Assembly: GCA_004298505.1 (NCBI GenBank)
Contig: SCRO01000078.1
Coordinates: 1 to 46,168, forward strand
Direction of reading: 5' to 3'
Length of the DNA: 46,168 bases
Source: Rhodanobacter sp.
Lineage (GTDB): Bacteria > Pseudomonadota > Gammaproteobacteria > Xanthomonadales > Rhodanobacteraceae
Both the position numbers and the translations under genes were made by a program. The notes beneath the pieces were generated by a model, which saw nothing but the letters and a program-made list of their open reading frames with translations, was not told where the DNA came from and made no database searches. Below are positions 9,564 through 24,710 of the stretch, one piece after another. Numbering within the stretch: position 1 is the first letter of the stretch; each line of letters begins with the position of its first letter.

Positions 9564-9627
9564 GCGGCTGCGAATGGGTTGAGGCCACGCGTAGAATAAC
9601 CGCTCACCCCACAGCACAGCAGCAACC

Positions 9628-11010
9628 ATGGCCGTCAGCGTATTCGACCTGTTCAAGATCGGCATCGGGCCGTCGTCTTCGCACACGGTGGGGCCGATGC
9701 GCGCCGCGGCGCGCTTTGCCGAGCGCTGGCTCGATGAAAAAGGCGTACTCGACCGCGTGGCACGAGTGCAGGCCGAACTGTTTGGCTCGCTGGCACTGAC
9801 CGGTCGCGGCCATGGCACCGACAAGGCGGTGCTGCTCGGCTTCGAAGGTGAGCACCCGGATACGGTCGATCCCGACCATATCCCGCAGACCCTCGAGCGC
9901 ATCCGCAGCAACAAGCGGCTGCGTGTGTTGGGCAAGCACGCGATCGCGTTCGACGAGAAGCGCGACCTGATCTTCAACAAGCGCCAGAAGCTGCCGTTCC
10001 ACTCCAACGGCATGCGCTTCAGCGCATATGACGCCGACGGCAACGAACTGGCCACGCGCGACTACTACTCGGTCGGCGGCGGCTTCGTAGTCAACACCGA
10101 CGAGGCCGCCGAAGACCGCATCGTGGCCGACACCACCGTGCAGCCCTACCCGTATTCCAGCGGCGACGAGATGCTGGCGCTGTGCCAGCAACACAACGTG
10201 ACCATTGCGCAGTTGATGCTGGCCAACGAATCGGTATGGCGACCCGAGGCGGAAACCCGCGCTGGCCTGCTGACCATCTGGAAGGCCATGCAGGACTGCG
10301 TGACGCGCGGCCTGCGCTCGCCCGGCACCCTGCCCGGTGGCCTGCACGTAAGCCGCCGTGCACCAGCGATGCTGGAAGATCTGCGCAACCAGCCCGAAGC
10401 CGCGTTGCGCGATCCGCTGACCATCCTCGACTGGGTCAACCTCTACGCGCTGGCGGTGAACGAGGAGAACGCCGCCGGCGGTCGCGTGGTCACCGCCCCC
10501 ACCAACGGTGCCGCCGGCATCGTGCCTGCAGTCGGCCACTACTACCTGCGCTTCTGCCCCAAGGCCGACGAGAACGGCAGCATCGAGTACCTGCTCACCG
10601 CCGGCGCTATCGGCATCCTGTACAAGGAAAACGCCTCGATCTCCGGCGCCGAAGTGGGCTGCCAGGGCGAAGTCGGCGTAGCCTGCTCGATGGCCGCCGC
10701 CGGCCTCACCGCCGCGCTCGGCGGCAACGTGATGCAGATCGAGAACGCCGCCGAGATCGGTATGGAACACAACCTCGGCCTCACCTGCGACCCGATCGGC
10801 GGGCTGGTGCAGATTCCCTGCATCGAACGCAACGCGATGGGCTCGGTCAAGGCCATCAACGCCAGCCGCATGGCACTGAAAAGCGACGGCAAACACCGCG
10901 TCAGCCTCGACAAGGTGATCAAGACCATGCGCGACACCGGCCGCGACATGAAGGACAAGTACAAGGAAACCAGCCGCGGCGGGCTGGCGGTAAACGTCAT
11001 CGAGTGCTGA
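9628..11010 (+). CDS. sdaA: L-serine ammonia-lyase, iron-sulfur type
   Basis: Single-chain L-serine dehydratase of 460 aa that converts L-serine to pyruvate and ammonia with a [4Fe-4S] cluster. The N-terminal beta domain starts [20 protein letters not shown]. The C-terminal alpha domain carries conserved cysteines at 345 (VGCQGE), 353 (ACSMA), 387 (LTCDPIGG) and 398 (IPCIERNA); three are expected to hold the cluster. Length matches E. coli SdaA (454). Pyruvate links it to the lactate genes that follow. Its last ~140 bases recur at 16831-16971, beyond the lactate cluster, so the present 3' end may have arrived with that block. Confidence 0.96.
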
Positions 11011-11028
11011 GGCAAAAAGGTACGGCAG

Positions 11029-12837
11029 TCACCTTGGCCGAGTAGGCTCTTGGCGCTCAACCGTGGTTGCGGGCAAGGCCTCTGCGCAAGCATTCTCGTG
11101 GCCCGTCCAGTGTCGCCACTTGGAGGTTTTCCCAATACCGGGGTTGAAGGTATTGCAGGGGTCAAGCTCCCTGTAGAAGCGCTGCAGTGCGGGCTGCGCG
11201 CCATATAGATGGCCCACATTGTGTTCGGCCGGGTACTGAACGCCGCGCTCGTCCAGCAGGGCCAGCATGCGCTGCTTGATCCGTTCGCAATCGTGCCCCT
11301 TGCGGACGATATAGTCCTGGTGCAGTACATGACATAGGAAGTGCCCGTAATAGAGCTTCTTCTCCAGCACCTGCTCCAGTTCGGCGGGCAACCGCTCAAA
11401 CCAGTCGGTCTCGTTGCGTCGCAGCGCGATGTCGAGCGCCACGATGTCTTCCACCTGCCGTGGGTGGATGGCGCGATAGCGTATCGCGGCACCCGCGGTG
11501 ACGAAGCGGTGCAGGAAGGCTTTTTTGCCCTCCGCGGGCTCGCAGACGAAATAATCGCCACCGGCGCTGGCGAAGAAGGCGCCGAGCAAGCTGGCCGTTT
11601 CCTCAATCGCTGGCTCGGCGACCTTCAGCAACAGGTGGTGCTCAAAGCGCTCGCGCCAGAGCCTTATGCGCGGCGGCAGGTGGTTCGGGAACAGCTTGCT
11701 CGCTGCCTGCATCACCCGATCAGAAAGTTGATCGGGCAACCAGCTGAAACGCTCCACGAACGCATCGACCCGGGCCTTGGCCGCGAACAGCCGTGGCAGC
11801 CGCCCGGTGCCCAGTCGCTCGACCGCCAGGAATATGTCCTTGCCGTAGGTCTCGGCGATGTCGAAGGCATCCCGGTGCATGTACTCGGCGGCGACCGGCA
11901 GCACCGATGAGCCGGTGAGGATCGCGCGGCGCAGGGTCGCCAGCTCCGCCGGATCGTTGCTGCCAATGTAGAACACCTGGGTCCGGCTGTCGGCGCAAAA
12001 AGTGTCCAGCCGCACGGCAAAGACAATCAGTTTACCGGCACAGCCGGACGCCTCATGCAGGCAACGGGTGTCGGCGTTGTAGCGGGCCGGCGTGTCGGCC
12101 TCGATATCACGCACGTGCGCGGCATAGTCATGATCCGATCCGAGCCCGGCATCGTGCTCGATATCGGCCTCGGTGTAGTCGCCACGCTCCAGCCGGTCGA
12201 GGATCTGCTCCGGGTCGTCACCGAGGCGAATGCCAAGGTGGTTGACCAGACGCAGTTCGCCGCACTCGTCGAGGCGTGCATACAGCGCCATCTCGGTGTA
12301 CGCCGGCCCACGCTGCACCAACGAACCACCTGAATTGTTGCAGATGCCACCCAGCACCGAGGCCCCCAGACAGGACGATCCGATTACCGAGTGGGGTTCG
12401 CGTCCCAGCGGTCTGAGCCGCTGCTCCAGCTGGTCGAGCGTGCTGCCCGGCAGGCACACCACCTGGCGCCCTTCGTCGATCAGCTGTACGCCAGCAAGGC
12501 GCAGCGTGCTGATGATCACCACCGGGCGATCGTAATCGTTTCCATCGGGTGTGGAGCCGCCGGTGAGTCCGGTATTGGCGGCCTGCATGATGACGATGGT
12601 GTCGGCCGCCACGCAGGCCCGGAGCACGCGCCAGAGCTCGACCAGGCTTCCCGGCCGCACTACCGCGAGCGCTTGTCCACCACCATGACGGAAGCCGCGC
12701 CGATACCTGCGCGTGCGCTGCTCCCCGATCAGCACCTGGCGGCGCCCGACGATCTGTCGCAACGCCTCGGGCAACACGTCGGCGCGACCGCCTGGCGGAA
12801 GCTGCCGCGCCCCCGCGGTGGAGTCATTCACATGCAT
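11029..12837 (-). CDS. dld: Quinone-dependent D-lactate dehydrogenase
   Basis: Peripheral membrane FAD enzyme of 602 aa that oxidises D-lactate to pyruvate and reduces the quinone pool. The PCMH-type FAD domain occupies ~45-270 (ALAVVRPGSLVELWRVLRAC, then AANTGLTGGSTPDG and SSCLGASVLGGICNNSGG). The membrane-binding and cap regions follow; the C-terminal segment ending HNVGHLYGA…FYRELDPCNTFNPGIGKTSK matches E. coli Dld (571 aa). The start ATG at 12837 overlaps the lldD stop by 10 nt, so the two genes are coupled. Together with lldD it lets the cell use both lactate isomers. Its stop lies only 18 nt from the sdaA stop; no terminator is visible between these convergent genes. Confidence 0.95.
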   Translation of the reverse strand: MHVNDSTAGARQLPPGGRADVLPEALRQIVGRRQVLIGEQRTRRYRRGFRHGGGQALAVVRPGSLVELWRVLRACVAADTIVIMQAANTGLTGGSTPDGNDYDRPVVIISTLRLAGVQLIDEGRQVVCLPGSTLDQLEQRLRPLGREPHSVIGSSCLGASVLGGICNNSGGSLVQRGPAYTEMALYARLDECGELRLVNHLGIRLGDDPEQILDRLERGDYTEADIEHDAGLGSDHDYAAHVRDIEADTPARYNADTRCLHEASGCAGKLIVFAVRLDTFCADSRTQVFYIGSNDPAELATLRRAILTGSSVLPVAAEYMHRDAFDIAETYGKDIFLAVERLGTGRLPRLFAAKARVDAFVERFSWLPDQLSDRVMQAASKLFPNHLPPRIRLWRERFEHHLLLKVAEPAIEETASLLGAFFASAGGDYFVCEPAEGKKAFLHRFVTAGAAIRYRAIHPRQVEDIVALDIALRRNETDWFERLPAELEQVLEKKLYYGHFLCHVLHQDYIVRKGHDCERIKQRMLALLDERGVQYPAEHNVGHLYGAQPALQRFYRELDPCNTFNPGIGKTSKWRHWTGHENACAEALPATTVERQEPTRPR

Positions 12838-13994
12838 GTCATGCCCGCCCGCCAGGGCATCGTCAGCAACACCTCGGGGGTCACCGCCCGAATGTCGGTC
12901 AGCCCACAGAATGCCATGGTCAGATCCAGCTCATTGCGGATCAGTTCCAGGCAGTTCGACACGCCCTTCTCGCCGCCCGCACCCAGTCCGTAAACATAGG
13001 CGCGGCCGATGAGGGTTCCCCTCGCACCCAGCGCAATCGCCTTGAACACATCCTGTCCGGAGCGGATGCCGCCGTCCATCCACACCTCGATCTGCGCGCC
13101 GACGGCATCCACGATCGCCGGCAGTGCGACGATGGAACTGGGCGCGCCGTCGAGCTGACGGCCGCCATGATTGGAGACGATCAACGCATCGGCACCTGAC
13201 TCGACGGCCAACCGGGCATCCTGCGCATCCATGATGCCCTTGAGGATGAGCTTGCCGCCCCAGCGCTTCTTGATCCACGCCACGTCGTTCCAGTTCAGGC
13301 GCGGGTCGAACTGCTGGCTGGTCCATGCCGACAGCGAACCCATGTTCTCCACGCCCTTGACGTGCCCGACGATGTTGCCGAAGTGGCGCCGCTTGGTACC
13401 AAGCATGCCGAGCACCCAGCGCGGCTTGGTCGCCAGATTCAACAGGTTGGACAGGGTCGGCCCGGGCGGCGCGGACAGCCCATTCTTGAGGTCCTTGTGG
13501 CGCTGCCCGAGTATCTGCAGATCCATGGTCAGCATCAGTGCCGAGCAACGCGCCGCCTTGGCCCGATCGATCAGGCGTTCGATGAAGTCCCGATCACGCA
13601 TCACATACAACTGGAACCAGAACGGGGCCTGGGTGTGGGCTGCCACGTCCTCGATCGAACAGATGCTCATGGTGGACAAGGTGAACGGAACCCCAAATTT
13701 CTCGGCCGCCCGCGCCGCCATGATCTCGCCGTCGGCATGCTGCATACCCGTCAGGCCGACCGGGGCCAGCGCCACCGGCATCGCCACCTTCTGGCCGATC
13801 ATCTGCGTGGCCAGCGAGCGGTTGTCGATATCCATCGCCACGCGCTGGCGCAGCTTCATCTGCTGAAAATCCTGCTGGTTGGCGCGATAGGTCGATTCAG
13901 TCCACGACCCTGAATCGGCGTAGTCGTAGAACATCCGCGGCACCCGCCGCCTGGCAAGAAGCCGCAGGTCCTCGATACAGGCGATCACCGCCAT
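12828..13994 (-). CDS. lldD: L-lactate dehydrogenase, FMN- and quinone-dependent
   Basis: A 388-aa member of the FMN alpha-hydroxyacid dehydrogenases that oxidises L-lactate to pyruvate at the inner membrane. The (beta/alpha)8 barrel shows FYDYADSGSWTE (~23-34), ALAPVGLTGMQHADGE, the LTMDLQILGQRHKD stretch, catalytic His276 in SNHGGRQLDG, and the phosphate-binding WMDGGIRSGQD…ALGARGTLIGRAY segment. Length equals E. coli LldD (396 aa) within a few residues. It lies between lldP (stop at 14056) and dld, all on the minus strand, consistent with an lldP-lldD-dld operon. The ATG at 13994 is the family start; the next upstream ORF ends 61 nt earlier. Confidence 0.96.
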   Translation of the reverse strand: MAVIACIEDLRLLARRRVPRMFYDYADSGSWTESTYRANQQDFQQMKLRQRVAMDIDNRSLATQMIGQKVAMPVALAPVGLTGMQHADGEIMAARAAEKFGVPFTLSTMSICSIEDVAAHTQAPFWFQLYVMRDRDFIERLIDRAKAARCSALMLTMDLQILGQRHKDLKNGLSAPPGPTLSNLLNLATKPRWVLGMLGTKRRHFGNIVGHVKGVENMGSLSAWTSQQFDPRLNWNDVAWIKKRWGGKLILKGIMDAQDARLAVESGADALIVSNHGGRQLDGAPSSIVALPAIVDAVGAQIEVWMDGGIRSGQDVFKAIALGARGTLIGRAYVYGLGAGGEKGVSNCLELIRNELDLTMAFCGLTDIRAVTPEVLLTMPWRAGMTCM

Positions 13995-14055
13995 GATGGG
14001 GTCTCCTCGTGGTGCCAGGGCCGGATCAGATCCGGCCTGGACGGGTTGCAGCGGT

Positions 14056-15705
14056 TCATGGGTGCACGATCGGCAGGGCGGGAATCATCCATGGCACCAC
14101 GTACTGCTGCAGCAACACCAGCAAGCCCAGCAACACGGTGAGCAGGATGCTGTGCCAGAACGTGCGGGCAAACACGACGCCTTCCTTGCCCTTCAGGTTG
14201 GTGGTGGTCACGCCGGTGGCGATATTCTGCGGCGAGATCATCTTGCCCATCACACCACCCGAGGAGTTGGTTGCCGCCATCAGCACCGGATTCAGGTGCA
14301 GCTGCTTTGCCGCCACCACCTGCAGGTTGCCAAACAATGCATTGCCCGAGGTGTCGCTGCCCGAGAGGAACACCGCAATCCAGCCGAGGAAAGCCGATAC
14401 CAGCGGAAAGAAAACGCCGACCGACGCGACCCCCAGGCCCAGCGTGTAGCTCATGCCCGAATAGTTCAGCAGATAGGCCAGGCCGATGATCATCATCACG
14501 GTGAGAATGGCCAGCCAGGTCTGGCACCAGGTGCGGTACACGCAGCCGAAAAAATCAGCCAGCCCGGTACGCGTCCACACCGCGACGATGACGGCGGACA
14601 GCAGGATCGCCGTACCGGTGCCCATCGGCTGCAGGTTCCAGATCGCCGCATAGGGCTTGCTGTAGAGCGTGATGAACACCGACTTGTCCAAACCCGGCCA
14701 TGGCAGCTTGATGTCCCCGATCGCCGAGAGCTTCAGGTTGATCCACGCGATCACCACCACCGTCACTACCAGCCATGGCATCCAGCCACCATACCCGGCA
14801 CGCTGTGCGCCGCGCGCCGCGGCCTGACTACGCACCACCGCAAACGCGGGGTCGGGCTCCGGCTTCCACACCTTCAGGAAGCTCACCGTCACCACCAGCG
14901 ACATCAACGAGGCCATCACATCCGTCAGCTGATAACTGATGAAGTTCGACGTCACGAACTGGGTCACCGCGAAGCTTCCGCCCGACACCAGCAGCGCCGG
15001 CCAGAGCTTGGCGATGGACTTCAGGCCGCCGTACATGCCGACCACGTAAAACGGTAGCAGGAAGGCAAACAGCGGTAGCTGGCGGCCGACCATGGCACCG
15101 AGGGTGTCCGGAGGCATGCTGGTGACGGCACCCAGTACCGTGATCGGCACCCCCAGCGCGCCAAAGGCGACCGGGGCGGTGTTGAAGATCAGAGTGTAGG
15201 TGAGCGCCTCGATCGCCGGAAAACCCAGGCCGATCAACAACGCGCTAGTGATCGCCACCGGGGTGCCAAAACCGGCGATGCCTTCCAGCAGGCAACCGAA
15301 CGAAAACGCCACCACCAGCAACACCAGGCGCCGGTCGTCGGGCAAGTGGTCGAGCATCCACTGTCGGAACTGCTCGAAGCGGCCGGACTTGACCGCCACG
15401 TTGTAGAGCAGCAGCGCGGTGAAGACGATCCACATCACCGGCAACAGCGCCAGCGCCATCCCCGCAGCCACTGAATCAATGGCCAGCCCGGCCGGCATGC
15501 CCCACAGCGAGATCGCGATCACAAGCGCGGCAATCAGTCCGGCCAGCGAGGCCTGCCACGCTGGACGACGCATCACGCCCAGCATGAACAGGGCGACCAC
15601 GATCGGAATAGCTGCGGTTGCGAAGGAAAACAGCAGCGAGCCATGAATCGGCGTAAGCGGCTGCGTGAAGACAATGCCCGGAGGCAAAACGGTGGTGGGA
15701 GTCAT
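14056..15705 (-). CDS. lldP: L-lactate permease
   Basis: Inner-membrane lactate:proton symporter (LctP family) of 549 aa; E. coli LldP is 551. About a dozen or more hydrophobic segments are visible. Family motifs include LEGIAGFGTPVAITSALLIG (~135-154), NTAPVAFGALGVPI (~175-188), and the C-terminal SGSDTSGNALFGNLQ (~455-469) and ATNSSGGVMGKMISPQNIA. It imports L- and D-lactate (glycolate in E. coli) for the two dehydrogenases downstream. The start ATG at 15705 leaves a ~270-nt divergent spacer to lldR that carries two operator-like sites, so lactate induction is expected. Confidence 0.96.
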   Translation of the reverse strand: MTPTTVLPPGIVFTQPLTPIHGSLLFSFATAAIPIVVALFMLGVMRRPAWQASLAGLIAALVIAISLWGMPAGLAIDSVAAGMALALLPVMWIVFTALLLYNVAVKSGRFEQFRQWMLDHLPDDRRLVLLVVAFSFGCLLEGIAGFGTPVAITSALLIGLGFPAIEALTYTLIFNTAPVAFGALGVPITVLGAVTSMPPDTLGAMVGRQLPLFAFLLPFYVVGMYGGLKSIAKLWPALLVSGGSFAVTQFVTSNFISYQLTDVMASLMSLVVTVSFLKVWKPEPDPAFAVVRSQAAARGAQRAGYGGWMPWLVVTVVVIAWINLKLSAIGDIKLPWPGLDKSVFITLYSKPYAAIWNLQPMGTGTAILLSAVIVAVWTRTGLADFFGCVYRTWCQTWLAILTVMMIIGLAYLLNYSGMSYTLGLGVASVGVFFPLVSAFLGWIAVFLSGSDTSGNALFGNLQVVAAKQLHLNPVLMAATNSSGGVMGKMISPQNIATGVTTTNLKGKEGVVFARTFWHSILLTVLLGLLVLLQQYVVPWMIPALPIVHP

Positions 15706-15842
15706 GGAGTCAGCTTCCTGTCATGGAAAGTGGCATGGATGAGCGCGCCTGTCTTGCCAAGGCCGGGCACTGAGACGCGCCTGCGAATCCATCCGAGCCC
15801 CTGGGCACCCCGGTCAAGATCAACACCAATGCTTATCTGGAC

Positions 15843-15859
15843 AATTGGTATGACCTATT
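15843..15859. promoter_or_regulatory. LldR/FadR-type operator 1
   Basis: AATTGGTATGACCTATT fits the GntR/FadR-subfamily operator pattern TTGGT-N3-ACC known for LldR and PdhR. It overlaps a plausible lldR promoter: TTGGTA at 15845-15850, 16-nt spacer, TATGAT at 15867-15872. Binding here would block lldR and could also affect lldP. Confidence 0.65.
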
Positions 15860-15948
15860 GTGAAGTTATGATAGAAAATGCACCGCGTCAAGTTCCCCAT
15901 GAGTACGACATTGGTCTCAGGTTTGACGGTCTGAGGGAAACAAAACAT

Positions 15949-15966
15949 AATTGGTCTGACCACATT
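15949..15966. promoter_or_regulatory. LldR/FadR-type operator 2
   Basis: AATTGGTCTGACCACATT has the same TTGGTNTGACC core as site 1 and lies ~14 nt before the lldR start codon, next to its Shine-Dalgarno (AGGTGA, 15968-15973). Two sites 106 nt apart, centre to centre, are about ten helical turns apart, as in the E. coli lld operator pair that supports looping. A partial half-site (TTGGTCTCAG) lies near 15911. Confidence 0.65.
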
Positions 15967-15979
15967 TAGGTGACGCAAG

Positions 15980-16744
15980 ATGGATGTGATCCGGCTGTCC
16001 GACACCATTGCCAACGATCTGGAACGACGCATCCTGGAAGGCGTCCTCAGCGCAGGAGAGCGCTTGCCGCCGGAGCGGGAACTGGCCGAACAACTCGGCG
16101 TATCCCGCCCGTCGCTGCGCGAAGCGCTGCAGAAGCTGGCCTCGAAAGGACTCGTGCGGACTCGCCAGGGTGGCGGCACCGTAGTGACGGACCGGCTTCA
16201 ATCCGGCTTCGTAGACCCGTGGCGGGACATGCTTAGCGGCAACCCTTCCCTGCAGCATGACCTGCTGGAGTTTCGCCACATGCTGGAGAGCCAGGCGGCG
16301 CTACTCGCCACCGAGCGCGCGACCGAGCTGGATATCGAGCGCATCGGTGATGCGTTCGGAACACTCGAACAAGCCTATGCGCAGGACGACATGTCCACCT
16401 GCATTCGGGCCGATGTCGAATTCCACCAGGCCATCGCGGATGCATCGCACAACGCGCTGATTACCCACCTGAGCGCCAGCCTGCACCTGCTGATCCACGA
16501 CCACGTGGAACAGAATCTGCAGTACCTGCATCGTCACCCGGACAAGTGGCAGAACATACGCGACCAGCACCGCACCATCTGGGAGATGATCCGCGCACGA
16601 AATGCGCAGGCCGCGGCCAATGCCGCCAAGGAGCACATCGCGTTCGTGCAAAAAAGCATGTCCGAGACCGCACTGGATGCGTCGCGACAAGAGAGCGCCA
16701 AACGACGTATGCGCGGGCGTTCCGGTGCAACCAAACCCAGCTGA
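15980..16744 (+). CDS. lldR: Lactate-responsive GntR/FadR-family regulator
   Basis: DNA-binding regulator of 254 aa. The N-terminal winged helix-turn-helix covers residues ~5-72 ([50 protein letters not shown]), and an FCD all-helical effector domain follows (~90-235) with likely metal/ligand histidines in [14 protein letters not shown] and [14 protein letters not shown]. coli LldR (258 aa) represses or activates lld genes depending on lactate. The divergent position to lldP-lldD-dld and the two operators support the same role. The last ~20 residues are basic and low in complexity ([12 protein letters not shown]). Start: ATG at 15980, with a well-spaced AGGTGA. Confidence 0.9.
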
Positions 16745-16799
16745 GGCTCAAGCTGCGTGCCGGGTTCGAATCCGTAGTGTGGGGCGCAAGCACTACATC

Positions 16800-16971
16800 A
16801 TGGCTCCGATCAAGTTGTCAACGCAGTCGCATGGCGCTGAAAAACGACGGCAAACACCGCGTCAGCCTCGACAAGGTGATCAAGACCATGCGCGACACCG
16901 GCCACGACATGAAGGACAAGTACAAGGAAACCAGCCGCGGTGGGCTGGCGGTAAACGTCATCGAGTACTGA
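16800..16971 (+). pseudogene. Second copy of the sdaA 3' end
   Basis: The 141 bases 16831-16971 match the sdaA 3' end (10870-11010) with five differences, all transitions (96.5%), and both end in a stop codon. The encoded tail reads …[19 protein letters not shown]…[10 protein letters not shown] against …VIEC in sdaA. Weaker similarity with small indels continues upstream to about 16800 (ATGGCTCCGATCAAG against ATGGGCTCGGTCAAG). There is no start codon context or upstream part of the enzyme, so it cannot make a functional protein. It lies 55-60 nt after lldR and forms, with the sdaA end, a direct repeat around the dld-lldD-lldP-lldR block. Confidence 0.9.
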
Positions 16972-16986
16972 TCCCCTCGCGGCCAC

Positions 16987-17014
16987 AAAAAAGTGCCGGT
17001 CGAAAGACCCGGCA
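16987..17014 (-). terminator. Possible minus-strand terminator
   Basis: Read on the minus strand, a stem TGCCGGGTC / GACCGGCA (one bulge) with a TTTC loop is followed by CTTTTTT. It could end transcripts coming from thyA-folA-mutT. It overlaps the N-terminal part of the broken HigA-like frame, so the match may be partly fortuitous. Confidence 0.5.
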
Positions 17015-17294
17015 TTCGTCGCAGCCTACGACGCGCTTGCCGATGAGTTCGCCGCGCTGGGCGAACTGGTGTGCGCACGCCAATTTGCCGAGATGACCCA
17101 GGCGGATGTCGCCGCGAGTATGGGCATCACGCAGGCCTCCGTGGCACGGGCTTGAATCAAGCGCCGGCGGTCGCAAGCACACACCGTCGATCGCCACGCT
17201 GCGCCGTTATGCCGATGCGGTGGGTTGCGAACTGCATATCACGCTGGCACCCAAGCCAAGGATATCGCGCTGGTCAAAAGCAGCGACTCCGTAG
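16990..17294 (+). pseudogene. Broken HigA/XRE-type antitoxin gene
   Basis: The forward frame reads …KDPAFVAAYDALADEFAALG… then an HTH (MTQADVAASMGITQASVAR), followed at once by a TGA (~17152). The second half continues in another frame: LESSAGGRKHTPSIATLRRY and ADAVGCELHITLAPKP. Joined, these give the usual order of a HigA-like antitoxin (helical N-terminus, XRE helix-turn-helix, short C-terminal strand), so a frameshift near 17150 broke the gene. No start codon is visible and no RelE/HigB toxin gene is next to it. It sits directly behind the second sdaA 3' end and before a REP pair, which suggests an old mobile or rearranged junction. Confidence 0.7.
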
Positions 17295-17350
17295 GGCGGG
17301 CACTGCCCGCCAGCCTTTGCGGGAAGAGCGGCGGGCAATGCCCGCCCTAC
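17291..17350. repeat. REP-like inverted pair overlapping the mutT stop
   Basis: Unit GTAGGGCGGGCACTGCCCGC… (17291-17311) and an inverted unit ending …GCCCGCCCTAC (17330-17350) with 18 nt between. The right unit supplies the TAG stop codon of mutT (17349-17347 on the minus strand). Confidence 0.8.
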
Positions 17351-17772
17351 GCGCGCGTGTTGGTTGCTTGTTGCAGGGCCGTCAGAATCACGCGGTCCGC
17401 CGGTGCCAGAGTCATGGGCTCAACCGTCGCCGGCGCCAGCCACTTCAACGGCTGGCCTTCCAGCGACTGCGGGTCGCCGTGCCAAGCGGATACGCGCCAG
17501 GCATCGAGCAGCAGGTCGTGATCGTCATGACGCCAAGGCACGCGAACCAGCGCAAGGGCATGCACGACGTCGATGCCGAGCTCCTCGCGCAATTCCCGCA
17601 CGAGTCCTTGCAGCGGCGTCTCACCAAGTTCGAGCTTGCCACCGGGAAATTCCCAGAACCCCGCCAGCTGTTTGCCGGCCGGACGCTGCGCCAGTAGCAC
17701 ACGCCCGACCGCATCCAACAGCAGGCCGGCCATCACGTGCATGACCGCTCGCGGCATGGAGGAAGCAGGCAT
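17347..17772 (-). CDS. mutT: 8-oxo-dGTP diphosphatase (Nudix)
   Basis: Nudix hydrolase of 141 aa that removes oxidised dGTP from the nucleotide pool to prevent A:T to C:G mutations. The Nudix box is complete: GGKLELGE (44-51) and RELREELGI (59-67). A short N-terminus (MPASSMPRAVMHV) precedes the usual start of the fold, so initiation at an internal ATG is possible. The ATG at 17772 shares its A with the folA stop (TGATG), so translation is coupled. Gene order thyA-folA-mutT puts nucleotide synthesis and clean-up on one transcript. The stop codon is inside a REP-like repeat. Confidence 0.93.
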   Translation of the reverse strand: MPASSMPRAVMHVMAGLLLDAVGRVLLAQRPAGKQLAGFWEFPGGKLELGETPLQGLVRELREELGIDVVHALALVRVPWRHDDHDLLLDAWRVSAWHGDPQSLEGQPLKWLAPATVEPMTLAPADRVILTALQQATNTRA

Positions 17773-18260
17773 CAGGCGCTGCGCAGGTACTCGACCATAT
17801 CGAAGTCGTAGGCGTGTTCGTTATCGGCCTTGTGATGCACGCGCGAGACCTCGGTCCACTCGGTGAAGTGGACGCCGGGGAAGAACGTGTCGGCCCCGTC
17901 GATGGCCGCGCTGACCCAGGTCAGATACATGCGGCGCGCGTACGCCAGCGCTTCGGCGAAGACCATGCCACCGCCGATCACCATCAGACCGGTTTCGCTG
18001 CAGCGCGCCTGCGCCTCTTCGATCGAACGGACCGTGATCTGGCCAGGAAACGGTGCCTCGTGCCGCCGCGACAGCACCAGGTTGACCCGATCCGGCAAGG
18101 CGCGGCCAATCGACACGGCCGTGTTGTAGCCCATCAGCACATTCTTGCCGGCGGTCAGCTGCTTGAACCAGCGCAGGTCGTCAGGCAGATGCCACGGCAA
18201 CTGACCCTGGCGGCCGATGGCGAAGTTTTCATCGAGTGCGGCAATCAACGAGATAGCCAT
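17772..18260 (-). CDS. folA: Dihydrofolate reductase
   Basis: Cytosolic NADPH-dependent enzyme of 162 aa that reduces dihydrofolate to tetrahydrofolate; the trimethoprim target. Residues 1-30 (SLIAALDENFAIGRQGQLPW…LPDDLRWFK) carry the catalytic acid Asp27. The NADPH-binding GKNVLMGYNTAVSIGRALP (~38-56) and VIGGGMVFAEAL (~94-105) segments are typical; the common MGRxTxxSIG motif reads MGYNTAVSIG, with Tyr in place of Arg. Length agrees with E. coli FolA (159). It lies 136 nt downstream of thyA, its partner in the thymidylate cycle, and overlaps mutT by one base. Confidence 0.95.
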   Translation of the reverse strand: MAISLIAALDENFAIGRQGQLPWHLPDDLRWFKQLTAGKNVLMGYNTAVSIGRALPDRVNLVLSRRHEAPFPGQITVRSIEEAQARCSETGLMVIGGGMVFAEALAYARRMYLTWVSAAIDGADTFFPGVHFTEWTEVSRVHHKADNEHAYDFDMVEYLRSA

Positions 18261-18396
18261 GGGGAATCCTTGGGAACGTGATCAATGAAAAGGTACGCCG
18301 CTCGGGCGGCACCGGACGCATGGAATCTTAGCAGGCCGCGCACCTCGCGGCCGGGAACCGCATTGTGCGACGGCGTATGGACGCAACGCCTCAGGG

Positions 18397-19191
18397 CTAA
18401 ACCGCCACGGCAGCCGTGATCGCCGGATGCGACTGGTACCCCTCGATCGCAATGTCCTCATAGCGGAAGCCGAAGATCGAGCGCACCTCGGGATTGAGCT
18501 TCAATCGCGGCAATGGCAGCGGTTCACGACCCAACTGCAGACGTGCCTGGTCGACATGGTTGTTGTAGAGGTGGGCATCGCCCAGGGTATGCACGAAGTC
18601 GCCCACGCCCAACCCGCAGACCTGGGCCACCATGTGGGTGAGCAGCGCATAGCTGGCGATGTTGAACGGCACGCCGAGGAAGATGTCGCCCGAACGCTGG
18701 TACAGCTGGCAGCTCAGCTTGCCGTTCGCGACATAGAACTGGAACATCGTGTGGCATGGCAGCAGCGCCATCTTCGGCAGCTCGCCGACATTCCAGGCAC
18801 TGACGATGAGGCGGCGCGAATCGGGGTTGTGCCTGATCTCGTCGACGACCCACGCGATCTGGTCGATGACCCGGCCGTCGGTAGTGGGCCACGCCCGCCA
18901 TTGCCGTCCATAGACCGGGCCGAGGTCGCCGTTGGCGTCGGCCCACTCATTCCAGATGCGCACGCCGTGCTCTTTCAGGTAGGCGATATTGGTGTCGCCG
19001 CGCAGGAACCAGATCAGCTCGTGCACGATCGACTTCAGATGCAGTTTCTTGGTGGTGACCAGCGGAAAACCCTGCGCCAGATCGAAGCGCATCTGCCAGC
19101 CGAACACGCTGCGCGTGCCGGTGCCGGTGCGATCGGCCTTTTCGGTGCCGTGGTCGAGAACGTGGCGGAGCAGATCGAGATAGGGACGCAT
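18397..19191 (-). CDS. thyA: Thymidylate synthase
   Basis: Thymidylate synthase of 264 aa, the same length as E. coli ThyA. It methylates dUMP to dTMP using methylene-tetrahydrofolate and releases dihydrofolate, which FolA regenerates. The catalytic Cys146 is in [11 protein letters not shown], preceded by [11 protein letters not shown] and followed by [21 protein letters not shown] (folate/dUMP site) and [14 protein letters not shown]. The C-terminus ends in …ITAAVAV, as in ThyA proteins. The ATG at 19191 begins the fold directly ([11 protein letters not shown]). It is the first gene of thyA-folA-mutT and divergent from pilD. Confidence 0.97.
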
Positions 19192-19283
19192 CTGTCAAGG
19201 ATAACCGTAGCGAAGAGCCTTGGCAGCCGGCCCATGACAACCGTCACTCCCGCAGACGAAGGTTTCGGCCTTTCCACCGAGCT

Positions 19284-19304
19284 GTAGGGCGGGCAGTGCG
19301 CGCC
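19284..19304. repeat. Single, degenerate REP-like unit
   Basis: GTAGGGCGGGCAGTGCGCGC, with two changes from the family consensus, in the thyA/pilD divergent spacer. A weak inverted half (GCCGGCGGGCTC…) lies near 19350 and may be the worn second arm. Confidence 0.55.
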
Positions 19305-19380
19305 GCTTTTGTTTGTACGCGCATACGCTACCCTTATGGTCCGCCCTCTGCCGGCGGGCTCCGAAACACCAGGCTCACAC

Positions 19381-20238
19381 ATGCCCGACCTTCCGCCCAC
19401 CGTATGGATTGCCCTCGCCGCCGTGCTCGGCCTGCTGGTGGGCAGCTTTCTCAATGTAGTGATCCTGCGCCTGCCCGCACGCATGGCGGCGAGCTGGCGG
19501 CGGGAAGCGCGCGATGTGCTGGAGCTCGAGGCCGATATCGAGCCGCTGCCGCCGGGCATCGTGCGGGAACCTTCGCACTGCCCGCAGTGCAAGCACCCGC
19601 TGTCGGCGGCGGATAATATTCCGCTGTTCAGCTGGCTGCTGCTGCGCGGACGCTGCCGCTACTGCAAGGCGAGAATCTCGATCCAGTACCCGCTGGTGGA
19701 ACTGCTCGGCGGCGTGTTGAGCGCGGTAGTAGTGTGGAAGTTTGGACCGACCTGGGTCGCGCTGGCTGGGCTGCTGCTCACCTGGGTGCTGATTGCCGCA
19801 GCAGGTATTGATTTCCGCACCCAACTGCTGCCCGACCAGTTGACCTTGCCGTTGCTGTGGCTGGGCCTGTTGCTGTCGCTGCCGCCGATGTTCGTCGGTG
19901 CGCAGGCGGCGATCATCGGCGCGGCGATCGGCTATGTGAGCCTGTGGAGCGTGTACTGGGCTTTCAAGCTGCTTACCGGCAAGGAGGGCATGGGCCATGG
20001 CGACTTCAAACTGCTCGCAGCGCTCGGTGCGTGGATGGGGCCGGTAGCGCTGTTGCCGACCATTCTGCTGTCCTCGCTGATCGGCGCCCTGGTCGGTGGC
20101 AGCCTGATTGCGCTACGCAAGCACCAGCGCGAGATTCCGATGCCGTTCGGTCCGTTCATCGCCGCCGCCGGCTGGGTCTGGTTCATCGCCGGCCACAACC
20201 TGTTGCAGGGTTACATGCACTTCACCGGCTTGCGATGA
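19381..20238 (+). CDS. pilD: Prepilin peptidase / N-methyltransferase
   Basis: Inner-membrane aspartyl protease of 285 aa that cleaves and N-methylates type IV prepilins and type II secretion pseudopilins. The N-terminal LVGSFLNVVILRLP stretch is typical. A cytosolic zinc site is formed by C67-x2-C70 (HCPQCKHP) and C92-x2-C95 (RCRYCKA). Catalytic aspartates are in AGIDFRTQLLPD (~140) and GHGDFKLLAALG (~205). Seven to eight membrane segments follow the family pattern, ending FGPFIAAAGW. The frame is open 24 codons upstream, but the ATG at 19381 gives the known N-terminus. It overlaps coaE by ATGA; the usual pilB/pilC genes are not in the window. Confidence 0.95.
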   Translation: MPDLPPTVWIALAAVLGLLVGSFLNVVILRLPARMAASWRREARDVLELEADIEPLPPGIVREPSHCPQCKHPLSAADNIPLFSWLLLRGRCRYCKARISIQYPLVELLGGVLSAVVVWKFGPTWVALAGLLLTWVLIAAAGIDFRTQLLPDQLTLPLLWLGLLLSLPPMFVGAQAAIIGAAIGYVSLWSVYWAFKLLTGKEGMGHGDFKLLAALGAWMGPVALLPTILLSSLIGALVGGSLIALRKHQREIPMPFGPFIAAAGWVWFIAGHNLLQGYMHFTGLR

Positions 20239-20855
20239 GCGGAAATCCGCACGCCCTGGTGGTGGCGCTGACTGGCGGTGTCGCCGCCGGCAAGTCGGCG
20301 GTGGCGCGCCGTTTCGAGGCGCTCGGTGTGCCCGTGCATGATGCCGACGTAGCTGCCCGTGAGGTGATCGCGCCAGGCTCGGCCGGCTTGGCCGAGGTGG
20401 CGGCCGCGTTTGGTCACGACGCACTGGACAAGACCGGCCAGCTGGACCGAGCGGCGATGCGCCGGCGCGTGTTTGCCGACCCTGCGGCACGCGGCACGCT
20501 GGAAGCGATCATCCACCCACGCGTGCGCGCCTGGCTGCGCGCACGCGTGGCGCTCGAACGCGCGCCCTACTGCCTGCTGGCGATCCCCTTGCTCGCCGAG
20601 AACATCGCACAGTATCGCTGGGTCGACCGCGTGCTCCTGATCGACGCACCCGAAGCGGTGCAGCTTGACCGGCTGATCGCTCGCGATGGTATCGACGAGG
20701 CGCTGGCCCGGCGCATGATTGGCCAGCAAGCCAGTCGCGACGAACGACTCGCCCTGGCCGACGACGTGATCGAAAACAGTCGCGACGAAACCGCACTGGA
20801 TGCAGCGGTGGCGTCCCTGCACAGGCGTTATCTCGAATTGGCGACCGCCCCGTAA
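20235..20855 (+). CDS. coaE: Dephospho-CoA kinase
   Basis: Last enzyme of coenzyme A synthesis, 206 aa: phosphorylates the 3'-OH of dephospho-CoA with ATP. The P-loop is TGGVAAGKSAV (13-23); VHDADVAAREVI (34-45), IHPRVRAW (~95-102) and the LLAIPLLAEN stretch match CoaE. The C-terminal RMIGQQASRDERLALADDVIEN is characteristic (R…Q…R and D.VI.N). Length equals E. coli CoaE (206). The start overlaps the pilD stop (ATGA), so it is coupled to pilD as in many gammaproteobacteria. A perfect REP palindrome follows ~40 nt after the stop. Confidence 0.96.
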   Translation: MSGNPHALVVALTGGVAAGKSAVARRFEALGVPVHDADVAAREVIAPGSAGLAEVAAAFGHDALDKTGQLDRAAMRRRVFADPAARGTLEAIIHPRVRAWLRARVALERAPYCLLAIPLLAENIAQYRWVDRVLLIDAPEAVQLDRLIARDGIDEALARRMIGQQASRDERLALADDVIENSRDETALDAAVASLHRRYLELATAP

Positions 20856-20896
20856 TCGCATGGACTCGCCCCCGCGCATTCAGGCATCGCCGCGCC

Positions 20897-20921
20897 GTAG
20901 GGCGGGCACTGCCCGCCCTAC
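20897..20921. repeat. Perfect REP-like palindrome
   Basis: GTAGGGCGGGCA - C - TGCCCGCCCTAC: 12-nt perfect arms around a single central base, between coaE and the XRE remnant. This is the best single copy of the family in the window. Confidence 0.8.
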
Positions 20922-20925
20922 GCGA

Positions 20926-21250
20926 CTATCGGTGACTGTTCGCTTTCGCGCCAGTGCGGTGCTTGATTGAAACCGGCCGCCTCGAAGGTGACGCCGCCAA
21001 GGCAAGTATCACGTCGCACGCGACCTTCTGCTGCGCAGCCGGCAGTGTTCGGTAGATAGCGAAGACCTGCTGGTCGTCGTAGGCCGGAGCCTCTTCCTTG
21101 ACCTGCCTGGCACCGCGCTTGCCGTGCGCGCCCCGATCGCCGAACCGCAGGAAGTCCGGGCCCTCCTTCAGCCAATCGGCCAGAACGACCAGTTTGTCCT
21201 GCTCAGGGATCCCTTTGCCGCTCAACCAGCGCGAGGCCGTCTGGAACGAC
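20926..21250 (-). pseudogene. XRE-family regulator lacking its N-terminus
   Basis: Minus-strand frame ending at 20926. From ~21250 it reads SFQTASRWLSGKGIPEQDKL, then LADWLKEGPDFLRFGDRG, a charged linker, and VFAIYRTLPAAQQKVACDVI. This is the recognition helix and C-terminal part of a phage-repressor-like XRE protein. The first helices of the HTH are missing; upstream of 21250 the sequence switches to the antisense of a type III methylase. The frame is open to 21342 but those codons are not protein-like. So the gene was cut by recombination at the edge of the restriction-modification remnant. The surviving ~108 codons probably have no function. Confidence 0.65.
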
Positions 21251-21252
21251 AC

Positions 21253-22237
21253 CGGGTCGGCCTGCAGACGTGCGAGTGGGTGCTGCCGTCGAAGGACACG
21301 CGCGACAGCGACTGGATCACCGCAGCAAATCGGCAGGCGCATCTAGACGACGAGGGCAACGCCGACTGGACCAACCGGCTGATCTACGGCGACAACCTGC
21401 TGGCGATGGCCGCGCTACTGGCCGGTGATGAACACACGCCCAGCCTGCGCGGCATGGTCGACCTGATCTACATCGACCCGCCGTTCGACTCCAAGGCCGA
21501 CTACCGCACCAAGGTGACCTTGCCCGGCATCGAGCTGGAGCAGAAGCCGACGGTGATCGAGCAGTTCGCGTATTCGAATACGTGGTCAGATGGGACGGCG
21601 TCGTATCTGGCGATGATCGTGCCACGACTGATCGTCATGCGGGAACTGCTTTCGGATCGAGGCAGCCTTTGCGTCCACATCGGCATGCAAGTCAGCCATT
21701 ACGTCAAAATTGTGGCTGATGAAATCTTCGGGAAGAACAACTTCAACACCGAAGTAACTTGGTCGTATGGAACTCCAAGCGGTGGCCGCGCGGCGGGAAA
21801 CAAGATCGTCAAAGCCCACGAATACCTGCTCTGGTACACCAAAAACTACGGTGAACACATCTATCACAAGGAATACCTCCCGTACTTAGAAAAATACCTG
21901 GCCGATCGGTTCACGGAAGTCGACGCTGCTCTCGCCCGAGGCGATCAACCTGGACGAGGGCAACCGCAAGAAGCTGCTCGAGGTGATGAACGCCGAGCCG
22001 CTGGCGCTGATCGAATACTGGGCGGTGGACCCAGACTACGACGGGGCGGTGTTCCGCTCGGTGTGGTAGGACTACCGCGGCAACACCGCCAACGACGACG
22101 ACCCGCTGCGCGTGGTCACCGAGGCGCGTTTCAACGTGCCGTACAAGGCCGGCGAGCGGCGCGTCTGCGTACGCGTGGTTGACGTGTTTGGTTTCGAGGC
22201 CGAGGTGGTGCACATCGTTGCGGAGTCAACAAGATGA
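21253..22237 (+). pseudogene. Type III modification methylase (mod), internally deleted
   Basis: The first ~220 codons are a clear adenine methylase of the type III/beta class: EWVLPSKDTRDSDWI, NRLIYGDNLLAMAALLAG, VDLIYIDPPFDSKADY (motif IV DPPF), and YLAMIVPRLIVMRELL. Near 21920 the reading jumps to another frame that encodes the family's C-terminal end (LLSPEAINLDEGN, then ALIEYWAVDPDYDGAVFRSV). That end is interrupted by a TAG at 22067, where relatives have a glutamine codon as I recall, and stops at 22237. Several hundred codons in between, including the FxGxG SAM-binding motif I, are lost, and the start codon is missing. No active methylase can be made. Confidence 0.85.
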
Positions 22238-22323
22238 GTGCTGACGTTCCGCTGCTGCTCGTCATTTTCGCAGAGGCAGGATTTTCAACAGACGAGCGAC
22301 CGGCCATCCATGAACGCTGTCGC

Positions 22324-22629
22324 TCAAGCCGCCAGCGGCTGGATCTTCTTCAGGCCAGCACCGAGCTTGCGTTCGGCGACTTTCAAGTCGTAGCTGGCCT
22401 GCAGGTTGATCCAAAACTGCGCGCTCTGCCCGAAGGCGCGGCCCAAACGCAGCGCCAGCTCGGCGGTCACGGGCCTCTGCTCGCGGACGATGTGCGAGAT
22501 GCGCATCGGGGATACGCCGATGGCCTGGGCAAACGCGGTCTGACTCATCTTGTGGTCTTCGAGAATTTCACGCAGGTAGTAGCCGGGGTGGATCGGCGGC
22601 AAACCGTTCTTGGCAGCTGGAATGCTCAT
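22324..22629 (-). CDS. higA: HigA-type antitoxin (XRE family, VapI-like)
   Basis: A 101-aa DNA-binding antitoxin. After PPIHPGYYLREILEDHKMSQ comes the helix-turn-helix TAFAQAIGVSPMRISHIV (~33-50), then ELALRLGRAFGQSAQFWINL and YDLKVAERK, which is the full HigA/VapI pattern. It is encoded 12 nt behind the toxin gene on the minus strand, the reverse order of most TA systems but normal for higBA. It should neutralise the toxin and repress the shared promoter, probably at the palindrome upstream of higB. The gene appears intact. The module lies between the remains of mod and res and runs against them. Confidence 0.9.
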   Translation of the reverse strand: MSIPAAKNGLPPIHPGYYLREILEDHKMSQTAFAQAIGVSPMRISHIVREQRPVTAELALRLGRAFGQSAQFWINLQASYDLKVAERKLGAGLKKIQPLAA

Positions 22630-22641
22630 GATTGCGGCACC

Positions 22642-22923
22642 TCAGTGGTACTCGACGATTTCGACATCGAAGGCTTCTCCTTCGACGAGCCGGAAGCAAA
22701 GCCGCCATTGCTGGTTGATGCGGATACTCCATTGGCCTGTGCGATCGCCCTTCAATGGCTCCAGCCGATTCGAAGGCGGAGACCTCAGATCCTCGAGGGA
22801 TGTAGCGGCATGCAGCCGGTTGATCTGCGCCAAGGCCCGGAACCGGATATCGGGCGGCAACCGCCGGGACCGCTCCGTGGCGAACAACCGCTCCGTTTCC
22901 TTGTCGGCGAAGTTCCTTATCAC
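22642..22923 (-). CDS. higB: HigB-type toxin (RelE superfamily)
   Basis: Predicted ribosome-dependent mRNA endonuclease of 93 aa. The family signature is complete: IRNFADKETERLF, a DIRFRALAQINRLHAATSLE helix pair, SNRLEPLKGDRTGQWSIRIN, and the end QWRLCFRLVEGEAFDVEIVEYH. I choose the GTG at 22923: it gives the family's usual N-terminus and has AGGAG 7 nt upstream. An in-frame ATG at 22986 would add 21 residues not found in relatives and would run through the operator. It forms an operon with higA. With the surrounding restriction-modification genes dead, this pair may be the last active part of the locus. Confidence 0.88.
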   Translation of the reverse strand: MIRNFADKETERLFATERSRRLPPDIRFRALAQINRLHAATSLEDLRSPPSNRLEPLKGDRTGQWSIRINQQWRLCFRLVEGEAFDVEIVEYH

Positions 22924-22965
22924 CCGGTCACTCCTGTTTACCCGGCAAATCCTTCTGTCCAGACC

Positions 22966-22982
22966 ATAAACAATAAGTTTAT
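22966..22982. promoter_or_regulatory. Palindromic operator of higBA
   Basis: ATAAAC-AATAA-GTTTAT is a perfect inverted repeat ~45 nt upstream of the higB GTG, in an AT-rich patch unlike the neighbourhood. It overlaps sequence resembling a minus-strand promoter (TTGCAA near 22989-22984). This fits autorepression by HigA. Confidence 0.6.
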
Positions 22983-23008
22983 TCATTGCAAGCACCCGGA
23001 GCCAGCCG

Positions 23009-24565
23009 ATGTTTGACGGCAGCAACCCGCTGACACTCGCCGCCGCCCTCACCCGTCGCACCGAGCAACTGTGCATCGGCCTGGAACAGGGCATCGCCGA
23101 CATCTACGAATTGGTGACGCCGGTGACCGCCGAGCTGCTGCGCTGGTGGTTCGGCGAGGATGCCTGCCAGGCGCGCACGTTCAACTTCCATCCCGGTCAG
23201 CGCCAGGCGATCCTCAATGTGATCGTGGCGCACGAGGTGCTGGACAGTCCGAACCTGAAGGATCTTTACGAGCAGGTATGCGCCGATGCACTGCTTGAAG
23301 GCACCCGCCTCGCCGACGTGGCGCAAGGCAAGCACGGCCACCCGAAGTACTGCCTGAAGATGGCCACCGGCACCGGCAAGACCTGGGTGCTGCAGGCACT
23401 GCTGGTGTGGCAGCTGCTGAACAAGACCGCGGCGCTGGAGGAAGGACCCGACGATCCGCGTTTCACCCGCCGCTTCCTGATCGTCGCGCCGGGGCTGATC
23501 GTGTACGAGCGGCTACTGGATGCGTTCCTGGGCAAGGAAAACGAGGACAAGAGCCGCGACTTCGCCAGCTCCGATATCGCCAGCTATGCCGAGCTGTTCA
23601 CCCCGCCGGCACGGCGCGAACGCATCGCGCAGTTCGTGCGCAACAACGTGTGCCAGAAACAGGAGATCGGCCTGAAGGCGGCGATGCGGCTGGGCCTGGT
23701 GAAGTCGCTGGTACTGAACAAGCGCAAGGAGGTCGGCGCGCTGGCGCTGGAGTTCAAGGCCGAGCGCGACACGGACGGCAATGTGTGCCTATCGGAAGGC
23801 CAGCGCGTGATGTTGCGCGCCGGGTTGCAAAAGCTGCGCAAGCTGGCGGCGGATTTCGCCCGCCTCGATGCCACGCGCCACCCGAAGATGCTGGTGGTGT
23901 GCGAGGACACGGCGGTGGCGCCACTAGTGGCGCAGTTCCTCCGTGACGAAGGGCTGCATGACGGCGACGTGCTCACCGTCGATTCCGGCAGGAAAGCCGA
24001 GCTGGGCGAGAAGCAGTGGGCGCCGCTGCGCCAGCGCCGGCTATCCGAGGTGACCAAGCTGGTGATGCGCGAGAGTGCGTCGCTGGAGGTGTCCAAGTGC
24101 ATCTACACCCGACTGCCCTACCCGACCCGCAGCGGCGGACTGGAGCGTGCGTTTATCGAGTGGGCGCAACTGGATGCCGGCGTGGAAGCGTTCTGCAAGA
24201 TCAGCGAGAACCGCCATGACTTCGTGCGGCTGCGTTACATCAAGGACGACGGCCTGCCGGCGCTGTACATCCCCGACTTCCTGGTGCGCACGGCGGACGC
24301 GATCTACCTGGTGGAAACCAAGGCCCAGCAGCAGGTCGGCCACCCGAACGTGCAGCGCAAGCTGAGGGCGGCCACCACCTGGTGCGAGCGAATCAATGCG
24401 CTGGAACCGGAACGGCGTGGCGGCCGCCGTTGGCATTACGCCCTGATCGGCGAGTCGCTGTTTTACGACTGGCGGGGCAAAGGTGCCCGGCTGAGCGAAC
24501 TGCTGGCGTTCTCGCGTGCTCGCGCGGTGTCCACGGCGCAGTCGCAAGGCGACCTGGCGCTCTGA
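23009..24565 (+). pseudogene. Type III restriction subunit (res), in-frame internally deleted
   Basis: Open frame of 518 codons, against roughly 900-1000 for complete Res proteins. It keeps the N-terminus with helicase motif I (MATGTGKTWVLQALL, ~112-126), a middle block (LVVCEDTAVAPLVAQFLRDE), and the C-terminal PD-(D/E)xK nuclease (PALYIPDFLVRT…IYLVETKAQ). The DEAD/H box is absent: the chain passes from KQEIGLKA to AAMRLGLVKSLVLN. Motifs V and VI are also missing, because APLRQRR is joined to LSEVTKLVMRES. Both losses kept the frame. Without the motor core and with mod broken, restriction is not expected, though a truncated protein could still be made. Start: ATG at 23009; the family N-terminus seems slightly shortened. 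Confidence 0.8.
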
Positions 24566-24710
24566 CCGCGTGATTCCCAAGTGAGGAGCAAAAATCCCAG
24601 CCCGTCATCGTTTTGGGCCATTCGTGACCTATGTGAGGTGACATGGGCCAGCGAATTCTGTAACCATCAGCCTCTTTTGGCGGATTCAGACGCCCTCTGC
24701 AGGAGCCTAC
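24566..24710. other. Unexplained spacer before the APC permease
   Basis: 145 bases that do not look like a simple promoter. They contain GGGCCATTCGTGACCTATGTG, cut short here, with repeated GGGCCA and GTGAC words and an ATGT-GAGGTG-ACAT inverted repeat around 24635-24650. It may be an operator or the worn end of a mobile element; I cannot name it. Confidence 0.3.

Follow-up and report, generated by a model that had tools for sequence, protein, structure and literature searches.

A lactate-use cassette between two copies of the sdaA 3' end in Rhodanobacter and its possible addition by recombination in a core gene

Introduction

How do metabolic genes come to lie between the end of a housekeeping gene and a second copy of that same end? 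The question is raised by contig SCRO01000078.1 of Rhodanobacter sp. (assembly GCA_004298505.1), of which a stretch of 46,168 nucleotides, here called the window, was analyzed. The housekeeping gene is sdaA, which is intact and encodes an L-serine dehydratase of 460 amino acids (9628..11010, forward strand; PF03313 and PF03315). Its tail recurs downstream, and the DNA between the two tails carries the lactate genes dld, lldD, and lldP together with a regulator. An earlier account made from the letters alone, referred to below as the sequence-only reading, had noticed this repeat and explained it by a block that brought its own copy of the gene end. Our preferred explanation, held with modest confidence, is that the lactate cassette would have been added by a homologous exchange within sdaA at its left end and by a join without homology at its right end.

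The source genome, G000, is a 3.78 Mb draft of 139 contigs with 3.5% contamination, and the window contig is its C7; the other G-numbers denote genomes of the comparison set. The genus set comprises 45 genomes, G000 included, and sdaA finds a match in 58 of the 60 genomes searched, G000 again among them. Self-BLAST, shuffled-sequence tests, Pfam and NCBIfam profile scores, and permutation tests were used throughout.

The repeated tail of sdaA

Self-BLAST of the window aligns the tail of sdaA (copy 1, 10856..11010, within the intact gene) with a 154-bp stretch on the same strand (copy 2, 16818..16971) at 95.5% identity over 155 columns (E 1.1e-65). The next-best self-match of the window has an E value of 1.6e-9. 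Six sites and one gap distinguish the copies, the sites being a C/T difference at 10866 and transitions at 10875, 10883, 10943, 10980, and 11006; in the ungapped comparison, 142 of 148 positions are equal. The sequence-only reading had described the last 141 bases of sdaA as repeated with five transitions only, which self-BLAST confirmed. It had also perceived weaker similarity over about 30 further bases upstream. This did not hold, as the similarity there scores 20, a value reached in 102 of 1000 shuffles, and is at chance level; copy 2 therefore begins at about 16818, corresponding to codon ~410 of sdaA. The identity of the repeat stops exactly at the sdaA stop codon, and most distinct sdaA loci likewise cease to resemble each other there. 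Within the G000 genome, the tail finds matches at two places (E <= 0.001).

The allele states of both copies were compared with those of 88 relatives, a count that comprises full-length sdaA genes of 1383 nt only, one per distinct sequence. Loci L093 and L147 were left out (90 relatives if included), as were the cut genes L133 and L137. Copy 1 carries the commonest state at five of the six differing sites, the exception being 10875. The states of copy 2 at 10883, 10943, and 11006, all second codon positions, occur in none of the 88. Such an alignment of both 3' ends with relatives had been proposed as a way of telling which copy is native, and it answers in part: copy 1, with its mostly common states, is read as the maintained end of the gene, and copy 2 as an old 3' end that is decaying. 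The left junction lies inside or after a continuous sdaA, and the single haplotype of the two tails prevents the exchange point from being located within the gene. A mosaic of two groups of relatives appears along sdaA in sliding identity; the discriminating sites are few and mixed, and it was not used as proof of a donor.

Repetition of the gene end takes another form at loci L143, L107, and L065, in three genomes, where tandem units of 136-138 bp (93-99% alike) repeat the last ~42 bases of sdaA directly after the gene. The tandem sdaA ends of G064, Dyella ginsengisoli, and strain C06 were considered as two-tail cases and rejected, since the duplication of a 136-138-bp unit is a different thing.

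The lactate cassette

Gene calling between the tail copies returns four genes and nothing besides. Three of them lie on the reverse strand: dld (11029..12837) encodes a D-lactate dehydrogenase of the membrane type (PF09330; NF008387 at 947.9 bits, above the cut-off), lldD (12828..13994) an FMN-dependent dehydrogenase (PF01070) of the L-lactate type by its context, and lldP (14056..15705) a lactate permease (PF02652). The fourth, on the forward strand, encodes a GntR/FCD regulator of lldR/pdhR-like type (15980..16744; PF00392 and PF07729). Its NCBIfam scores are 228 bits for PdhR and 192 bits for LldR, both below the cut-off, and with PdhR as its best match, lldR is a name by position. The claim that exactly dld-lldD-lldP-lldR lies between the copies is upheld for the four-gene content and not for the identity of lldR. 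No mobility gene is found among the four.

The permease gene lldP is present in three of the 45 genus genomes, G000 included. The relative G012 is colinear with positions 9343-16762 of the window (sdaA-dld-lldD-regulator) minus 14013-15680 (lldP), and the likeness ends at 16762, before copy 2. Its order downstream is sdaA-dld-lldD-regulator, other DNA, and an amino-acid permease gene; no second sdaA tail is found within ~10 kb behind sdaA, despite the lld cassette there. Nucleotide identity between G000 and G012 reaches 93% in lldD, 92% in the regulator, and 88% in dld, compared with 72-86% in the ten other genes found there (sdaA body 85%); pilD and coaE have no match in the G012 DNA examined. 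The higher identity of the three cassette genes points to horizontal sharing of the cassette between these genomes. No cassette excess is seen between G015 and G000, with 77-82% for the lld genes and 87% for the sdaA body.

Other relatives carry parts of the same gene set. A contig of G015 without sdaA has the order dld-lldD-lldP-regulator-permease, with dld cut by the contig end. In G017, the order sdaA-dld-lldD is followed by the contig end, and in G005, the contig ends after sdaA-lldD, without dld. As a separate observation, G012 (L136/L121, L135) holds a 70% lldP with one internal TGA on a different contig.

Older neighbors of sdaA and the right joint

Beyond copy 2 lies the remnant of a gene for a HigA-like antitoxin (16977..17284, forward strand), whose reading is interrupted by a stop and resumes in a different frame when compared with an intact relative of 116 amino acids in G022 (HTH_3). 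Across the 45 genomes, the sequence after copy 2 is matched just downstream of sdaA in G022 (89% over 308 bp) and more weakly in G025, about 100 bp after sdaA (74% over 86 bp, E 6.7e-9). All other matches span 25-58 bp, with E values of 2.7e-4 or worse. Both G022 and G025 are without lldP, and no lld genes occur in the ~10-11 kb examined behind their sdaA. The order in G022 is sdaA, a toxin-like gene (PF05973) that we take to be HigB-like, the HigA-like gene, a type III restriction-modification (R-M) system, and the permease, and this order continues in the window from the R-M genes to the permease (20896-26378).

These arrangements support the view that what follows copy 2 was an earlier neighbor of sdaA. 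Copy 2 would then stand where the resident sdaA end is expected, given a deletion of the HigB-like gene. It had been predicted that strains lacking the lld genes have sdaA directly before the sequence at 16972. The adjacency is indeed present in G022, though not directly, as ~480 bp including the intact HigB-like gene separate sdaA from the sequence corresponding to that at 16977. A broken HigA-like gene and a pair of repetitive extragenic palindromic (REP) sequences had also been reported after the second copy; both are present, the pair at 17290-17351. Further remnants of the older content extend over 20920..24565 on the forward strand. Compared with G022 and G003, deletions have disrupted the type III R-M system (mod, res) here, and its mod pieces are separated from its res pieces by a HigBA-type pair (22324-23103).

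Between the end of the likeness to G012 and copy 2 lie 55 bp (16763..16817) of no found origin, with no match below E 0.03 in the 45 genomes apart from the stretch itself. A 101-bp stretch around the joint also gave no informative match in this set. Many of the genomes contain the 16-mer of 16784-16799, at E ~0.3, which is taken as chance. The sequence GGTTCGAATCC near 16763, within the 55 bp, resembles the T-loop motif of tRNAs. With no tRNA found in the window and no informative match around the joint, a tRNA gene or an att core at this place was rejected.

The variable slot between sdaA and the permease

The older content of the window ends at a gene for an amino-acid permease (24711..26375, forward strand; PF13520), which closes the slot behind sdaA in many relatives. 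A survey of 90 unique sdaA loci across the family placed the permease downstream of sdaA in 64 loci, always on the same strand (64/64). It lies within 700 bp in 30 loci and farther away in 34; it is absent from the examined DNA in 23, and three offer too little DNA. The contents between the two genes differ from locus to locus, which indicates that the interval is a slot with high gene turnover in Rhodanobacter and its relatives. Two of these contents, the lld genes on the one hand and HigBA-like genes with a type III R-M system on the other, occur apart in relatives. In G000, they follow each other in series, lld first and R-M second, and the second sdaA tail marks the boundary between them.

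Signs of raised recombination in sdaA, the core gene at the flank, are clear in one pair of genomes and suggestive in others, and the genus-wide association is null. The clear pair consists of G005 and G017, which each carry lld genes after sdaA. Their sdaA genes are ~88% identical, rising to 98-100% at the 3' end, and their lldD genes are 95% identical over 340 bp. The tail identity of this pair is the highest among 316 locus pairs of comparable sdaA body identity, which served as the reference.

A second module behind sdaA

A different cargo is found in G035, G021, and G032, where sdaA is followed by a stress-type module of seven genes: extracytoplasmic function (ECF) sigma factor, cupin, CMD, LysR, NmrA-like, GST, and OsmC. 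The families were assigned in G035, and the same gene clusters occur in all three genomes. At its far end, ~5.57 kb downstream, the module runs into a decayed fragment of sdaA whose start is at codon ~370. This fragment is joined in G035 to the 3' part of a res gene, followed by the permease; in G021 and G032, other DNA comes after it. Between G035 and the other two, identity is 89-91% in the sdaA body and 91-97% in the module genes, compared with 86% or no match in the permease. The three genomes have the right joint in common, a module more alike than its flanks, and different downstream contents. The comparison suggests a similar additive plan with a different joint (codon ~370 vs ~410), and it suggests, rather than shows, that an sdaA tail moved with the module.

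Some other loci touch on this pattern. G015 was considered as a further two-tail case and set aside, as both its sdaA and its dld are cut at contig ends and it cannot be told. Its sdaA (L133, L134) is cut at codon 370, about the start codon of the remnant in the ECF trio, which may be chance or an unassembled repeat. In G066, a second sdaA tail stands at the start of contig C282 (1-135, L139), with the permease 2.15 kb further on, and its whole sdaA (L138) has other genes behind it; this may be a third two-tail case or contamination. On contig C12 of G032 (L225:6600-12651), an integron integrase (TIGR02249, 487.7 bits) lies ~10.6 kb downstream of sdaA. Small open reading frames (ORFs), mostly on the opposite strand, are found between it and the sdaA remnant. 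Together, the integrase and the ORF layout resemble a cassette array that borders on the slot.

How the cassette may have arrived

Homologous recombination between relatives would start from an ancestor with sdaA, HigBA-like genes, the type III R-M system, and the permease, and from a donor that carried the lactate cassette behind its own sdaA. The left exchange would have taken place by homology inside sdaA, leaving the gene whole and ending in copy 1. On the right, the incoming DNA would have been joined to codon ~410 of the resident sdaA with no long homology, as in homology-facilitated illegitimate recombination (HFIR). At this joint, no similarity above that of shuffled sequences is seen upstream of 16818, consistent with such a join. 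The resident tail, now copy 2, and the older content would have been retained and shifted downstream, and copy 2 would later have decayed. That both tails have a single haplotype could be due to conversion of one by the other or to a donor very near the recipient. We infer this order of events as part of the same explanation.

Several observations weigh against this course of events. Both tails have rare alleles in common, A at 10893 (5/88) and A at 10992 (3/88), so that a near donor or later conversion is needed, and a local duplication would need nothing extra. After copy 2 come five bases and then the interior of the HigA-like gene, not the intergenic stretch of G022, and a deletion must therefore be added. 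Only one genome, G012, shows a complete lld cassette with no second tail behind it. The mosaic of body and tail in the G000 sdaA is weak, and its start does not coincide with that of the repeat. Genus-wide, the association of tail likeness with slot content is -0.0002, with 251 of 500 permutations as high. The 5' control of this co-transfer test gave +0.0092, with 1 of 500 permutations as high, a signal that is probably relatedness. In the ECF trio, the tails rise only modestly in identity, to 96.7% (G035-G021), 96.0% (G035-G032), and 94.5% (G021-G032), compared with a mean of 93.6% among the 316 pairs, and the remnants in these genomes are not nearest to their own sdaA. The null genus-wide test, these remnants, and the shared rare alleles keep our confidence in recombination between relatives modest.

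The two tails around the cassette could also result from one tail-tail exchange, if a circle carrying an sdaA tail with dld-lldD-lldP-regulator had entered by a Campbell-type single crossover. This is unlikely, although the neighboring 3.5-kb block, described below, bears a signature of circle excision and re-integration. Such a circle would need a joint from beyond the regulator to sdaA codon ~410, where no repeat is seen, and no circle-borne relative was seen in searches that left plasmid collections outside. One-sided integration by HFIR and integration of a circle lead to the same end product and are not separated by it. The shared rare alleles in a single haplotype and the missing intergenic stretch of G022 after copy 2 are what a local duplication would leave, in which the lld genes already lay behind sdaA and the 154-bp tail was copied later next to the HigA-like remnant. 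We consider it rather improbable: a random copy would be unlikely to end at the stop codon, the adjacent HigA-like sequence has notable matches in only two other genomes, both times just downstream of sdaA, and the ECF module is another set of genes flanked by an sdaA fragment.

Integrative elements insert in the 3' ends of genes, leaving a duplicated 3' end and a whole gene. An element that targeted the sdaA 3' end, restored the gene, and lost its integrase would match the whole gene, the duplicated end, and the block inside, and it is nevertheless very unlikely here. The sequence-only reading had seen no integrase, and a profile search agrees in finding no PF00589 on the contig, other recombinase families (serine integrases and DDE enzymes) being outside that search. 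Within 11 kb downstream of sdaA, PF00589 was found in one of 12 genomes (G032, of the integron type), the sdaA contigs of G005, G015, and G017 ending earlier. Unlike such elements, the cargo has no mobility gene, and the copies start at different codons in the two cases, ~410 in G000 and ~370 in the ECF trio; one core site in independent insertions is not seen. G012 carries the cargo behind sdaA without a second tail in the DNA examined. Given the missing PF00589, the differing start codons, and the cassette of G012, homologous recombination between relatives would fit better than an integrative element. Of the original proposal, the inserted block and the gene left whole are retained, and the origin from an integrative element is disfavored. 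An assembly artifact, which the fragmented draft and its contamination might bring to mind, is the least probable explanation of all; a single collapsed sequence would not show the six site differences and the gap between the copies, and both flanking adjacencies occur in relatives.

The relocated mutT-coaE block

Between the HigA-like remnant and the R-M remnants lies a block of five genes, mutT-folA-thyA-pilD-coaE (17347..20855), which is a circular permutation of the order pilD-coaE-mutT-folA-thyA in G003, G031, and G022; G005 agrees with the latter over the DNA examined. The families of thyA and coaE score above the NCBIfam cut-offs, mutT and folA have best matches below them, and pilD is assigned by PF01478 and PF06750. 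The REP pair (17290..17351) forms the left border. A REP at 20896..20922 forms the right one, where G022-type sequence resumes, and another at the thyA/pilD joint (19284..19294, forward strand) is read as the joint of a circle. In G015, no pilD-coaE match is found beside mutT-folA-thyA in 12 kb, and in G012, the contig ends. At short folA loci, pilD occurs in the examined flank in 10 of 29 relatives.

The source of the block appears to be on contig C110 of G000 (8897-8994, in L212), where 98 bp containing a REP pair separate pilB-pilC from the neighboring lgt. The REP 11-mer GTAGGGCGGGC occurs at 17291, 19284, and 20897 and in this pilC-lgt scar. Gene order and repeats indicate that mutT-folA-thyA-pilD-coaE left the pilC-lgt site and moved separately from the lld block. 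An excised circle re-entering at a REP apparently explains the order, the emptied source, and the REPs at four joints. No simple misjoin was seen that gives both the permuted block and the emptied source, the draft state of the genome being a caveat. The spacing between sdaA and mutT in related genomes had been suggested as a check on the lld insertion. It is not a valid one, as the block moved there separately and mutT is not a native neighbor of sdaA.

Relation to known systems

HFIR has been proposed for the arrays of orphan immunity genes in Vibrio type VI secretion system (T6SS) clusters, alongside which orphan 3' ends of Rhs genes are cited (PMC5361080). As in Vibrio, a conserved anchor would be combined with another end that has no homology, new cargo is placed beside the anchor, and older genes, including a 3' end shifted back, persist downstream. 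In Vibrio, T6SS sequence on the upstream side serves as the anchor and the old effector is pushed out of its place, whereas at the present locus a catabolic housekeeping gene, which stays whole, would be the anchor for metabolic cargo.

Hotspots flanked by core genes (PMC5635113) resemble the present locus in having a variable slot between conserved genes, here with no integrase found in the slot, and in signs of recombination in the flanking core gene, here in single pairs. They differ in that double recombination at the flanks swaps their content, whereas here content appears to have been added and a piece of the core gene left as a seam. Merodiploids formed in pneumococcal transformation arise from repeats common to donor and recipient and carry duplications bordered by the repeat (PMC3784515). 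The repeat-bordered product is similar, but in pneumococcus the duplicated DNA is ~100-900 kb of the recipient's own, whereas the short repeats at sdaA enclose cargo that most relatives lack. For Rhodanobacter itself, genomic islands and many R-M genes have been described, and no mention of competence or lactate was found in that report (PMC8809349). Among the listed titles and abstract openings of the open-access literature, most subscription literature being outside, nothing was found on sdaA as such a slot.

Implications

Many hotspots lack an integrase, and the entry of their genes is mostly inferred from statistics. At sdaA, a metabolic housekeeping gene, two seams seem to have survived, which differ both in cargo and in joint. 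A more far-reaching idea, which we regard as doubtful, is that the two-tail cassette constitutes a transferable format that, once formed, needs no recombinase of its own and is able to add itself beside any Rhodanobacter sdaA by ordinary recombination. If true, such a cassette would bring two homology arms, resident content would be kept, and slots would grow serially with sdaA-tail seams; the module of the ECF trio would be a spreading unit and the lld block of G000 a new one. The relocation of folA, thyA, pilD, and coaE via an apparent REP-bounded circle would represent natural gene movement with no transposase in sight. If the addition of the lactate cassette took place as proposed, duplicated 3' ends of core genes would be a countable scar of additive gene capture across genomes, and slots such as that behind sdaA would accumulate cargo rather than only exchange it.

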